A stretch of 64,000 nt of DNA, from positions 62,001-126,000 of the forward strand of contig JALHNM010000001.1 of NCBI GenBank assembly GCA_022843485.1, written 5' to 3'. Shown one piece after another: positions 6,745 to 10,998 of this stretch. Below the pieces are notes generated by a model, which saw only the letters and a list, made by a program, of their open reading frames with translations, ran no database searches and was not told the DNA's origin. Position numbers and translations under genes: made by a program. Numbering within the stretch: the first letter of the stretch is position 1; each line of letters begins with the position of its first letter. The DNA is from Fimbriimonadaceae bacterium. GTDB lineage: Bacteria > Armatimonadota > Fimbriimonadia > Fimbriimonadales > Fimbriimonadaceae.

Positions 6745-8043
6745 TTGAAGAACTGGATCGCAGCGTTTCTGGTGTGCGCCCTTATTGTCGGGTGCGGTGG
6801 CGGTGGCTCGGGCACGGGCGGGACTAGCGGTGGCACGGGTGGCACCGGCGGCACGAGCGGGGGACGCGGGATCCCCACCGTGAACCTCGGGACCGCGTCT
6901 CAGGTCCAGGTGCTCTACCTCTCGGGCCAGGGCCGACGCGCGCCGGGGTCGCAGATCGCCGAGTTGGGGCCGATCCAGGTCCAGAACGGGCCGGCCGACT
7001 TCGCCCCGACCGAGCAGCAAGGCTCGGGCTCAGCGGTGCGGATCCAGCTCGACGGCTACACTCTGAACCAGTTCGTGTTCTCCGTGACCGTCTCCCCGGA
7101 TCAGCCGTTCAAGGAGTACACGGAATTCCCGCTTTCGATCGCGAAGATCGACGAGGACACGGGCTCCGGGTTCACGACCGTTTACTCGGGCCCCACCTTT
7201 ACCGAGTCGCCGCCGTTCAGCGCTGACGTCCGCGTGTTCCCGGGCCGCCAAACGACGCTCCAGGTCAACTTGAACGACGCGATGCTCCGGTTCGACCCGA
7301 GCGACGGCCTCGTCTTCGACCGGTTCCAGTTCGAGTCGGAGAACTACGCGCCGTTCAACGACAAGGTCAACGGGTTCTTGAGCGACCTGGTCGCGTTCGA
7401 CATCACGGGCCTCTCGAACGCCTCCCGCCCGCTCATGGAGAACGGCAGCCGCGCCGAGCAGATCTTCTTCAGCGGCGACCTGATCGCGCTCTCCGCCGGC
7501 TTCGAGACGGAGGGCTCGTTCGAGCTCCTCGACCCGATCGTCATCGTCGAGACGGGCATCATCAAGCCGCCGACGAACCTGGGCGGGACGCCCGCTCCGG
7601 GGACGTACCTCGCCAAGGAGTTGGACCCGCGCAACTCGGACCCGAACGTGGACGTGCGCATCTCCGCCCTTCAAGGCTTCTACCGACCGTACACCGAGGT
7701 GCTCGGCAACCTAAGCGACTTTGGAGCGGTGGCGTTCCCGAACTCCCGTAGCGAGCTCGGCATCGGCGACCTCTTCGACGTCGTGTTCTTCAACCGGAAC
7801 GCGGCGGGGCAGATCACCGCCCTCTGGCAGGGGATCGTCTCGTTCGACACCGATACCCAGGGCGTGATCGAGCTTTGGCCGATCTCGAACATCAAGGACG
7901 GCGTCGCGGACCCGCTCGGGTCGGGCACGATCACCTACACCAAAGTCAACGGAGTCGTGAAGCAGGGCACGTTCTCGATCACGACGTCCACCGAGGCGTT
8001 CCCGTTCCCGCGGTCGGGCGGGTTCGTCGTGTTCCGGAACTGA
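6745..8043 (+). CDS. lipoprotein of unknown function
   Basis: About 432 residues. The frame is open far upstream, but the real start is most likely the TTG at 6745: it is preceded by the Shine-Dalgarno-like GAGGTGGT and gives the lipoprotein signal LKNWIAAFLVCALIVGC with lipobox LIVG|C. GTG codons at 6736 and 6739 are alternatives. After the lipid-anchored Cys comes a Gly/Thr/Ser-rich linker (about 25 residues), then a beta-rich body of about 380 residues without a recognisable catalytic motif. It ends one base before dop, so it may share transcription with the proteasome genes, but nothing else links its role to them. Confidence 0.8.
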   Translation: MKNWIAAFLVCALIVGCGGGGSGTGGTSGGTGGTGGTSGGRGIPTVNLGTASQVQVLYLSGQGRRAPGSQIAELGPIQVQNGPADFAPTEQQGSGSAVRIQLDGYTLNQFVFSVTVSPDQPFKEYTEFPLSIAKIDEDTGSGFTTVYSGPTFTESPPFSADVRVFPGRQTTLQVNLNDAMLRFDPSDGLVFDRFQFESENYAPFNDKVNGFLSDLVAFDITGLSNASRPLMENGSRAEQIFFSGDLIALSAGFETEGSFELLDPIVIVETGIIKPPTNLGGTPAPGTYLAKELDPRNSDPNVDVRISALQGFYRPYTEVLGNLSDFGAVAFPNSRSELGIGDLFDVVFFNRNAAGQITALWQGIVSFDTDTQGVIELWPISNIKDGVADPLGSGTITYTKVNGVVKQGTFSITTSTEAFPFPRSGGFVVFRN

Positions 8044-8044
8044 C

Positions 8045-9532
8045 ATGCCCCGCGTCCTGGCCGGCATCGAGACCGAGTACGGCCTCGCGGTCGAGGGGCG
8101 CGGACCGGAAGACCAGGTCGAAGACGCGACCGCAGTAGTGAAGGCCTCCCCCCGGGAGGCCTTCACCGGTTGGGACACCCGGTTCGAGTCGCCGCGGAGC
8201 GACCTTCGGGGGTTCCGGCTCGACCGCCTCGCCTTCGACCCGGAGGACGCCCGGTACGACACCGGCCGGGCCCGCGGACCCGAGGCGGAGGTGCGGGCGG
8301 ACCGCGTGCTGACGAACGGTGCCCGGTTCTACAACGACCACGGCCACCCCGAGTACGCCACCCCTGAGTGTTGGAGCCTGCACGAGTTGGTCCTCCACGA
8401 CCTCGCGGGCGAGCTGGTCGTGCGCGAAGCAGCGCTCGCGTTCGAGCGGGCCAGCGGGCGACGCGTCACCGTCCTCAAGAACAACTCCGACGGCCACGGC
8501 GCCTCCTACGGGACGCACGAGAGCTACCTCGCCCCGCGGGGGCTCGGGTTCGAGCGCCTCTATCGGGCGGTCATGCCGTTGCTCATCGCCCGGACCGTGC
8601 TCTGCGGGGCGGGCAAGGTGGGGAGCGAGACCGGCGATCCCTGCCCGCTCCAAATGAGCCAGCGGGCCGACTTTTTCGCCGAACCCGCGAACGCCGAGAC
8701 CCTATACCGGCGGCCGGTCTTCAATACGCGGGACGAGCCCCACGCCGACCCGGGCGAGTGGATCCGACTCCACGTCATCGCGGGGGACGCCAACATGGAC
8801 CCGGGCTGCACCCGGCGCAAGGTCGCGTTGGTGAAGCTGGCACTGCTCCTCGAGTCGGTCGGCCAGAGTCCGGTCTGGCGGGTCGCGGACCCGCCCCGGG
8901 CTGCCCGATCCGTGAGCCGGGATTTGAGCGGGAACGGCCGGATCGACCTCGAAGGCGGGAGCTGGACGGAGCCTAGGCCGGTGCTGGAGTCGTACCTCGA
9001 CGCTTTCGAACGGGCGTTCCCCGCGGGCGAGCCCGACACCGATGAGCTGCTGGGGACCGTCGAGGAGTGCCGGCGTCTGCTCGAGGACCTCGTCTCGAGC
9101 CCGACCGCCTTCGCACGGCAGGTCGATTGGGCCGCGAAACGGGCGATGATCGAGGGGTTTCTGGAAGAGGAGGGCGGCGACTGGCGGGACCCCCGGCTCA
9201 AGGCGTTCGACCTGGCCTACCACGACCTCGATCCAGACAACGGGCTCTATTGGGCTTTGCTGGAGGCTGGGGCGGTCGCCCCCCGGCCGGCCGACGAGGA
9301 GATCCAAGCCCGGGTCGAAGGCGTCTTTGAGCGCAGCCGGGCCTGGGCCCGCTCGCTCGCGGTGCGGGGACAGAAGTCCGGCCTCAAGGGAGTATCCTGG
9401 GGAACGCTGACGTTAGAAGAGGGAGGGCGCGAGACCACCGTGCCGCTGGCCCCGGATCGGGAGTACCCCGACTCCTTGGCCCACGCGGCCGAACCCGGTG
9501 AGTTCCTCCGCCTCTTGCGAGACACGAAATGA
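8045..9532 (+). CDS. dop: Dop-type deamidase/depupylase of the UBact system
   Basis: A 495-residue Dop, a carboxylate-amine ligase-fold enzyme that removes the small modifier from lysines of tagged proteins. Metal-binding glutamates are Glu9 and Glu11 in GIETEYG. The catalytic Asp98 lies in FYNDHGHPEYATPEC. Other Dop-like blocks are LKNNSDGHGASYGTHESYL, NTRDEPHAD and HVIAGDANM. It resembles Dop more than the ligase PafA, notably in the DHxHPEY block. Because the neighbouring modifier already ends in Glu, deamidation should not be needed, so depupylation is the likely job. Its stop overlaps the ubact start by four bases. No pafA ligase gene is in the window. Confidence 0.93.
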   Translation: MPRVLAGIETEYGLAVEGRGPEDQVEDATAVVKASPREAFTGWDTRFESPRSDLRGFRLDRLAFDPEDARYDTGRARGPEAEVRADRVLTNGARFYNDHGHPEYATPECWSLHELVLHDLAGELVVREAALAFERASGRRVTVLKNNSDGHGASYGTHESYLAPRGLGFERLYRAVMPLLIARTVLCGAGKVGSETGDPCPLQMSQRADFFAEPANAETLYRRPVFNTRDEPHADPGEWIRLHVIAGDANMDPGCTRRKVALVKLALLLESVGQSPVWRVADPPRAARSVSRDLSGNGRIDLEGGSWTEPRPVLESYLDAFERAFPAGEPDTDELLGTVEECRRLLEDLVSSPTAFARQVDWAAKRAMIEGFLEEEGGDWRDPRLKAFDLAYHDLDPDNGLYWALLEAGAVAPRPADEEIQARVEGVFERSRAWARSLAVRGQKSGLKGVSWGTLTLEEGGRETTVPLAPDREYPDSLAHAAEPGEFLRLLRDTK

Positions 9533-9714
9533 CCTGGAACGCGGACAGAACCTTACGGCGGGAGTCGTCGGAGCCGGAGCGGAGGCTCGGCGACGATGAG
9601 GGCCCGAGCAAACCGGACATCGGCCGACCGGACGGCCCGAACGAGCTTCTCCGGCGGATGAAGCGGATCGACCCCGACCAGGCGAAGAAGTACCGTCAAA
9701 GGTCGGGCGAGTGA
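9529..9714 (+). CDS. ubact: UBact, Pup-like protein modifier
   Basis: A 61-residue, highly charged, Pro/Gly-rich and probably disordered protein ending in KKYRQRSGE. The C-terminal Gly-Glu is the hallmark of Pup/UBact modifiers: the Glu side chain is ligated to target lysines by a PafA-type ligase. The segment LLRRMKRIDPDQAKKYRQRS matches the UBact type described for Armatimonadota and Nitrospirota, not actinobacterial Pup, which ends GGQ. Since it already ends in Glu, no prior deamidation is needed. It overlaps dop upstream (ATGA) and prcB downstream (GTGA), so all three are translationally coupled. Confidence 0.93.
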   Translation: MTWNADRTLRRESSEPERRLGDDEGPSKPDIGRPDGPNELLRRMKRIDPDQAKKYRQRSGE

Positions 9715-10448
9715 TGTTCCCGGCCACGGGCACGTTCGCGGAGTTGGTCGGCTACCGGCCTCAGCCGAGCGAGGTCGACGTCACCCACGGAACGACCGTC
9801 ATCGCCCTCCGCTATGACCAGGGCTGCCTCATCCTGGCCGACCGACGGGCCACAATGGGCAACCTGATCATGTTCGAGCACGCGGAGAAGGTCATCGCGC
9901 TCGACCAGGAGACGGTCGTCGCGGTGAGCGGGGCCTATGCGAAGGCGCTCGAGGTCTCGCGCTACCTGCGCCACGCCTTTAAGTACTACGAGCGGCTCAA
10001 CTTGGTCGAGATCTCGGCCGAAGGCAAGCTCATGGAGATCTCGCGGGCCCTGCAGGGCAACCTTCCCGCCGCCATGAACGGGGGCCTGTTCCTGCCGATC
10101 GCCTCGGTCTACGACCGTCGGGCCGACTCGTTCGGCGTGTTCTTCTTCGACGCGGCGGGGGCACGGTTCCAGAGCGCTGACTACGCGACTGCGGGCTCGG
10201 GGTCCGAGCGTATCCGTGGGGTGTTCGAGTACCTGATCCGCACGAAGGGGCCTTGGGGCATGCGGTCGTTCGAGGAGGTGCTCCTCGACGGGCTCCAGAT
10301 GCTTGACATCGCCGCTGACCTCGATTCGGCCACGGGCGGATTTCGGAAGACGCCCCCCGCTGCGGTCGTACTCGATCGGGACGGGGTTCGGACGATGACG
10401 GACGACGAGTTGCGCCCGAACTTAGACCGAGTGCTCTCGCCCGCCTAA
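9711..10448 (+). CDS. prcB: 20S proteasome beta subunit
   Basis: A 245-residue proteasome beta subunit, the proteolytic part of the bacterial 20S core. A 27-residue propeptide precedes the cleavage site HG|TTVIAL, giving catalytic Thr1 at residue 28. Counting from that Thr, Asp17 (LADRRAT), Lys33 (HAEKVIAL) and Asp166 fall exactly at the canonical positions, so the site is intact. DSATGG near the C-terminus is also typical. The start is GTG 9711 or ATG 9714. The usual neighbours prcA, pafA and the ARC/Mpa ATPase are absent here: the next gene is on the other strand. They must lie elsewhere, or the core is unusual. Confidence 0.95.
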   Translation: MMFPATGTFAELVGYRPQPSEVDVTHGTTVIALRYDQGCLILADRRATMGNLIMFEHAEKVIALDQETVVAVSGAYAKALEVSRYLRHAFKYYERLNLVEISAEGKLMEISRALQGNLPAAMNGGLFLPIASVYDRRADSFGVFFFDAAGARFQSADYATAGSGSERIRGVFEYLIRTKGPWGMRSFEEVLLDGLQMLDIAADLDSATGGFRKTPPAAVVLDRDGVRTMTDDELRPNLDRVLSPA

Positions 10449-10450
10449 CC

Positions 10451-10480
10451 GAGGCCCCGGGGTCGGTCCCCCAGGGCCTC
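10451..10480. terminator. bidirectional hairpin between prcB and the convergent gene
   Basis: GAGGCCC (10451-10457) pairs with GGGCCTC (10474-10480), with an inner GGGG/CCCC stem and a short loop. It sits three bases after the prcB stop and 11 bases from the stop of the convergent outer-membrane protein gene. No T-run follows. Confidence 0.5.
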
Positions 10481-10491
10481 TCGGAGGCTGG

Positions 10492-10998
10492 TCAGAAGCG
10501 GTAACCGAAGTGGAACCCGATGTTCGAGGCCCGGGCCCCGTTCGCGTTGTCGCTGTGCACGAGCGTGATCTCGCCGAACAGCTTCTCGCTGAACTCGCGG
10601 CCGACACCGACGCGGGCGGCGAGGACGGTCTTGGAGTCGGTCACGTCGACCACGGCGATGCCCGCCCCGGCGAAGAAGTAGTTCCGGCTGAACTCGTCCT
10701 CGCCCCGGCTCGGGCCGTAGAAGCGCTGGTTGAGCAGGATCGGGAACACGTTGCCCTTGGACCCGCTGCTGCTCTTGCCGAGCCAGTCCACGGAAAGGGT
10801 GGTCTCGCCGCCGGGCAACAGGCTGCGGTCGAAGTAGTAGTCGAAACCGACGCCGATGAAGTTCCGGACGACGTCGCGGGTCGTGTCGTCGAGCGGATAG
10901 GCGAAGCCGATCCGGAGCGAAACGTTAGTGGGCGCCTCGATCTGCGCCGAAGCGACCGTGGCCGACGCCAGCGCCGCTGCAATGAGCAAGTTCCTCAT
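10492..10998 (-). CDS. small outer-membrane beta-barrel-like protein
   Basis: A 168-residue protein with a clear signal peptide (MRNLLIAAALASATVASAQ) and a body of alternating hydrophobic strands ending in aromatic GFHFGYRF, as expected for an outer-membrane barrel. The open frame extends to 12006, but that is antisense to glyS. The ATG at 10998 has a strong Shine-Dalgarno (AGGAGG, spacing about 6). A -10-like TATGAT at 11047-11052 on the minus strand would give a leader of roughly 40 bases. Function unknown. The exported protein at 59375 has a similar layout. Confidence 0.82.
   Translation of the reverse strand: MRNLLIAAALASATVASAQIEAPTNVSLRIGFAYPLDDTTRDVVRNFIGVGFDYYFDRSLLPGGETTLSVDWLGKSSSGSKGNVFPILLNQRFYGPSRGEDEFSRNYFFAGAGIAVVDVTDSKTVLAARVGVGREFSEKLFGEITLVHSDNANGARASNIGFHFGYRF

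Follow-up and report, generated by a model that had tools for sequence, protein, structure and literature searches.

According to reviews, the genes for prokaryotic protein tagging follow a rigidly conserved order (PMC3511204) and Pup always adjoins a ligase gene (PMC2588565). A G[EQ] end of the modifier is already known (PMC2588565), both PupE and PupQ species have been described (PMC3511204), and actinobacterial Dop performs two reactions, deamidation and tag removal (PMC3511204, PMC8223512). At the proteasome, mycobacterial Mpa requires a C-terminal GQYL motif for opening its core (PMC8142254, PMC12288473); the interaction motif is also missing from the ATPases of actinobacteria that are devoid of proteasome genes (PMC3511204). 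Beyond Actinobacteria and Nitrospirae, a survey described Dop/PafA as very sporadic (PMC7947786). Here we analyse a locus lying in a 64,000-nucleotide stretch of a Fimbriimonadaceae genome (the window), which carries dop, a gene for a modifier of the UBact family and prcB. We regard it, with a probability of roughly 0.9, as belonging to a complete, dispersed UBact–proteasome system of a known kind, and as the remnant of an ancestral six-gene operon, arc–dop–ubact–prcB–prcA–pafA, that was disassembled stepwise.

The dop–ubact–prcB locus

Family profiles and direct reading of the sequence agree that dop, ubact and prcB are real, coupled genes at 8045-10448 on the + strand (Table 1), as an earlier, sequence-only reading of the window had proposed; the profiles are clear-cut for UBact and, as regards the other two proteins, for their broad class. 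The dop stop and the ubact ATG overlap in an ATGA (9529-9532), and the ubact stop is overlapped by a GTG at 9711, an alternative prcB start, and by the in-frame ATG at 9714 from which PrcB is numbered here. The dop product belongs to the PF03136 fold family (E 8.7e-121), contains a Dop-type N-terminal loop and scores better with the Dop model TIGR03688 (321 bits) than with the PafA model TIGR03686 (255 bits), both scores lying under cut-offs that are actinobacterial (492 bits for the Dop equivalog). Its top solved-structure match is Dop 4b0r (E 1.2e-74), and in a tree of 33 proteins it clusters with operon-encoded Dop, away from PafA, with a support of 100. Asp98, which aligns with the aspartate that is proposed to be catalytic in Dop, is the same residue in 6/6 aligned sequences. 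The modifier exceeds the curated NF033388 cut-off of 35 bits and ends, as previously claimed, in RQRSGE directly followed by the stop codon. For PrcB, the first-named solved-structure match is a bacterial 20S beta subunit, and residue 27, which follows the propeptide, is where the alignment with the mature beta chains of Mtb and other bacteria starts. The sequence-only reading had also listed four catalytic residues: Thr1, Asp17 and Lys33 (residues 27, 43 and 59) and, as the fourth, an aspartate called Asp166 there and corresponding to residue 204 in AADLDSATGG, are all invariant in approximately 150 homologous frames.

Neither prcA, pafA nor ARC adjoins dop–ubact–prcB in the window, and prcB is followed by a hairpin and then by a convergent gene, both in keeping with that reading. 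The hairpin lacks a T-run and 25/200 shuffled sequences fold equally well (z -1.25); it is therefore weak evidence for a terminator, and we did not retain it as one.

Table 1. Features of the locus and partner genes of the same genome (C, contig; L, fetched locus; unprefixed positions refer to the window)
Feature	Position	Strand	Remarks
Predicted lipoprotein gene	6745..8043	+	start codon TTG (inferred); lipobox IVGC-GGGG; probably opens the unit
dop	8045..9532	+	depupylase/deamidase homologue; putative de-UBact-ylase here
Codon of Dop Asp98 (FYND98HGHPEYATPEC)	8336..8338	+	aligned with proposed catalytic aspartate of Dop
ubact (modifier, 61 aa)	9529..9714	+	NF033388 74.4 bits; PF20513 E 1.8e-21
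UBact C-terminus RQRSGE	9694..9711	+	read directly; last codon GAG
prcB (20S beta subunit, 26-aa propeptide)	9714..10448	+	TIGR03690 E 1.2e-36
Codon of PrcB Thr1 nucleophile (precursor residue 27)	9792..9794	+	152/152 homologous frames
Hairpin 3' of prcB	10449..10484		-27 kcal/mol; weak terminator candidate
Outer-membrane-like protein gene	10492..10998	-	convergent to prcB; outside the unit
pafA	C2:86021-87379 (L009:6001-7452)		PF03136; tree position; no Dop-loop
prcA	C3:195500-196192		TIGR03691 E 3.8e-25
arc	C1:696659-698128 (L011:6603-8276)		TIGR03689 E 1.0e-134

The upstream lipoprotein gene

The sequence-only reading overlooked the predicted lipoprotein gene upstream of dop, whose stop lies one base before the dop start; lipoprotein, dop, ubact and prcB are probably co-transcribed. 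A profile made from 13 full-length homologues, which align over their full length with an invariant GCGG, places this gene as the same-strand upstream neighbour of dop in 67 of the 75 loci of the window's family. The exceptions are two loci cut by contig ends (G099, G131), two for which the fetched stretch contains no dop (G129, G130) and four in which the gene is absent next to dop (G109 and G147-149); L194, a record matching G129, carries the lipoprotein–dop pair. Note that L194 (JADZEW010000030.1) is titled Methanoregulaceae archaeon and displays a Fimbriimonadaceae-like lipoprotein–dop–ubact–prcB locus; the record is probably mislabelled or mixed. The divergent fabH–plsX–DUF177 block beside the lipoprotein gene is also conserved, which weakens the lipoprotein–dop linkage as evidence of a shared function; L186 and L194 keep the pair, but no such block was found there. 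The lipoprotein, specific to the family and encoded by a single-copy gene in the window's genome, has no Pfam match. Its predicted structure is beta-rich (pLDDT 81.5) and matches no PDB fold at E<=0.001, the best weak match being a Bacteroides fimbrial protein (E 0.015, TM 0.17/0.24).

The partner genes lie elsewhere in the genome

The sequence-only reading had suggested that the whole genome be searched with PafA, PrcA and ARC/Mpa profiles, and this search, carried out on the window's own assembly (98.8% complete, 20 contigs, 2.96 Mb), located the three genes on contigs 2, 3 and 1, respectively. (i) The genome contains two PF03136 genes, the second of which, on contig 2, is the PafA candidate. 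Its product scores 276 vs 273 bits with the two NCBIfam models, without reaching the NCBIfam cut-off; as these scores cannot separate it from Dop, the assignment is based on the missing Dop-loop and on the tree of 33 proteins, where it sits with all operon-encoded PafA, opposite all Dop (support 100). (ii) The contig 3 protein displays alpha-type homology and the activator-pocket lysine of a 20S alpha subunit; its best solved-structure match is Mtb PrcA and it is 69% identical to the PrcA of a same-genus relative. It scores 20.8 bits against a Pfam cut-off of 22.4 and also falls under the TIGR03691 cut-off, which means that routine annotation could overlook it. (iii) ARC is encoded on the same contig as dop (C1:70057), approximately 625 kb away. 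It reaches 449 bits with TIGR03689, under the actinobacterial cut-off of 505, and matches Mpa 5kwa, its best solved-structure match, over its full length (E 4.9e-101), with the coiled coil, OB and AAA architecture of ARC/Mpa. No Bpa activator was found in this genome, and none of its system genes is interrupted by a stop.

The genome thus contains a complete UBact–proteasome gene set, at four places. The sequence-only reading had offered two explanations for the bare locus, partners encoded elsewhere or an unusual core or ligase: the former is borne out and, with PrcA, PafA and ARC located, there is no reason to invoke the latter, so that a beta-only core and an absent ligase were discarded as candidates. 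The same reading had envisaged an intact prcBA–pafA–mpa locus elsewhere as speaking against it; the partners do exist, but at three separate places rather than in one locus.

Gene order and its break-up across relatives

Of the 291 genomes of the phylum, 167 contain UBact and 188 a member of the ligase family. The closest Dop proteins among named records come from Fimbriimonas, Fimbriimonadaceae and other Armatimonadetes, which makes Armatimonadota almost certainly the phylum in question. The full contiguous arrangement arc–dop–ubact–prcB–prcA–pafA is found outside the window's taxonomic order (e.g. G045 and G183), and also in most named Poribacteria and in several Nitrospirota and Verrucomicrobia loci. 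The cluster of the sister families f3 and f4 no longer includes arc but retains prcA and, sometimes, pafA; family f2 displays multiple, partly scattered arrangements; in f1, the window's own family, prcA, pafA and arc each lie elsewhere in every sampled genome and dop–ubact–prcB is the only part that stays linked. This dispersal holds in eight single-contig assemblies (G126, G077, G080, G119, G134, G135, G150 and G153), with dop, prcA, pafA and arc lying, for instance, at 506, 109, 1511 and 952 kb in G126, and is therefore not an effect of binning or assembly. Even the three-gene core is eroding in some relatives: approximately 0.6 kb separates ubact from the prcB frame in G139, and approximately 1.9 kb separates dop from ubact in L194.

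Other arrangements were met along the way. Four Nitrospinota loci (L222, L225, L242 and L263) display the altered order arc–dop–prcA–ubact–prcB–pafA, and in L229 and L246 (Verrucomicrobia) and L235 (Poribacteria) an arc–dop pair is present, and no ubact, prcB or prcA could be recognised downstream. Extra Pup-ligase-family paralogues occur in tandem, off the main cluster, in L182 (G055 C14:7000-17000), and one more is found in G008 (C2:704520-705437). Apparent Dop–UBact fusions, seen as long frames in G128 and G147-149, were rejected: they are stop-to-stop frames of GC-rich DNA, and Dop has its own stop.

Among 50 handpicked genomes, PrcA was found in 47, the same 47 have Dop/PafA and 46 of these have ARC, whereas the remaining three, including two 1.5-Mb relatives, contain no gene of the system. 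The two relatives, G132 and G133, are small genomes of the window's family from which the entire UBact–proteasome system is missing. The genes thus behave as one functional set that is kept or lost together though unlinked: the cluster dissolves yet the set is co-retained, which indicates that linkage and function are separable.

The last residue of UBact

UBact tails were collected by profile from 86 loci, 75 of them in the window's family. The tail reads RQRSG[EQ] followed by a stop in all 86, the last residue being Gln in 62 and Glu in 24 (58 and 17, respectively, in the window's family). Frequent flipping between these two states within one order is new here. Mapped on a tree of 82 Dop proteins, the last residue requires at least 17 changes, of which at least 10 are imposed by branches with good support; its clustering barely exceeds that of shuffled labels (mean 19.4 changes; 52 of 500 shuffles as low). 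G082 and G089 have near-identical UBact with opposite last residues, and the window's genome has a Glu end where its same-genus relative G126 has Gln. The flips (e.g. L048, L111, L117) concern the initial base of the final codon and often leave the ATGA overlap with prcB in place (CAA-TGA in 48 loci, GAA-TGA in 11).

With such frequent flipping, the Glu end of one genome says little about what the Dop of the lineage can do. The sequence-only reading had taken Dop to remove tags rather than to prepare them. This fits the Glu end of the window's genome but does not carry over to the locus as a type, since UBact ends in Gln in the same-genus relative and in the majority of the family and the state flips many times; the claim that Dop is restricted to tag removal is thus weak. 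The Gln-ended UBact of relatives would need deamidation by Dop and, most relatives being Gln-ended, both Dop reactions are probably ancestral. Flips between such close relatives make it testable what the deamidase activity of Dop is needed for.

The ARC tail and possible docking to the 20S core

The C-terminus of ARC is [VI][IVML] in 71/71 complete UBact-lineage sequences, drawn from the window's phylum, Nitrospinota, Nitrospirota, Poribacteria and Verrucomicrobia, and a YL end occurs in none of them; the window's own ARC ends in KKTIV. The C-terminal GQYL of actinobacterial-type Mpa is thus absent, and it is not certain that ARC couples to the 20S core. On the side of the core, the alpha-pocket lysine, Lys48, which aligns with the pocket position of Mtb, is conserved in 83/83 PrcA. 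In other proteasomes, this alpha lysine binds activator C-termini. The simplest reading of these sequences is that the ARC tail may be a different C-terminal docking signal. More tentatively, at slightly less than even odds, we propose as a whole that the [VI][IV] end of ARC (rarely M/L) enters the alpha pocket in place of GQYL/HbYX, the lysine being kept, and that the system runs from four unlinked loci in the Fimbriimonadaceae-like family, with dop tied to the gene of a secreted lipoprotein. A GQYL-free ATPase beside an intact core makes the docking of proteasomal ATPases directly testable.

Proposed pathway and alternatives

The most likely function of the system would be conjugation and proteasomal degradation. 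By homology with the Pup system, PafA (contig 2) would attach the terminal glutamate of UBact to lysines of substrates and Dop would detach the modifier again, while ARC (contig 1) would recognise and unfold the tagged proteins and pass them to a 20S core in which PrcA (contig 3) is combined with the PrcB of the window. With the Glu end of UBact in the window's species, prior deamidation by Dop would be unnecessary.

In one alternative, which we consider improbable, the bacterium retains both ARC and tagging with UBact, yet ARC does not feed the proteasome: it would work by itself or help Dop, as has been suggested for actinobacteria that have no proteasome genes, with a 20S core operating independently. 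The GQYL motif is indeed missing from all 71 UBact-lineage ARC sequences, as it is from those actinobacterial ATPases (PMC3511204), the genome yielded no Bpa, and prcA no longer lies beside prcB or arc. However, the ARC tail is not degenerate, the same short signature being kept throughout several phyla, the alpha-pocket lysine is strictly conserved, and ARC, PrcA and the ligase family co-occur in nearly every genome.

The dissolved cluster and the two 1.5-Mb relatives without any system gene could also be taken as signs of a decaying, non-functional relic heading for loss. This is most unlikely: the genes of the window's genome have no internal stops, the catalytic residues of PrcB are invariant across deep divergence, the UBact tail is perfectly conserved and two overlapping start/stop junctions are kept. 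Finally, a genuine lack of prcA and pafA, leaving a proteasome of beta subunits only or a modification system with Dop only, is hardly conceivable: it draws on local gene order only and is already contradicted by the presence of PrcA, PafA and ARC in the window's genome and in one-contig relatives, and rescuing it would take contamination of the window's assembly that is repeated in dozens of relatives.

Comparison with known systems

Within the literature searched, where UBact receives passing mentions only, three points are new: the C-terminus of ARC, the dispersal of the genes and the link with the lipoprotein gene. The closest systems are the UBact systems of Gram-negative phyla (PF20513, NF033388), which share the modifier family, the enzymes, the core and the ATPase, as well as an RQRSG[EQ] or QRTG[EQ] tail; elsewhere, their genes form the single cluster arc–dop–ubact–prcB–prcA–pafA, whereas here only dop–ubact–prcB are linked and the other three genes are separate. 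The actinobacterial Pup–proteasome system has homologous Dop, PafA, ARC and 20S subunits and a small modifier with a G[EQ] end, but here the modifier is of the UBact family and not Pup, ARC ends in [VI][IVML] instead of GQYL, no Bpa was found in the window's genome, and the gene order called rigidly conserved (PMC3511204) is broken. Finally, corynebacterial pupylation without a proteasome likewise combines a Glu-ended modifier, a retained Dop and an ATPase without GQYL; in contrast to that situation, both prcA and prcB are present here, with their key residues.
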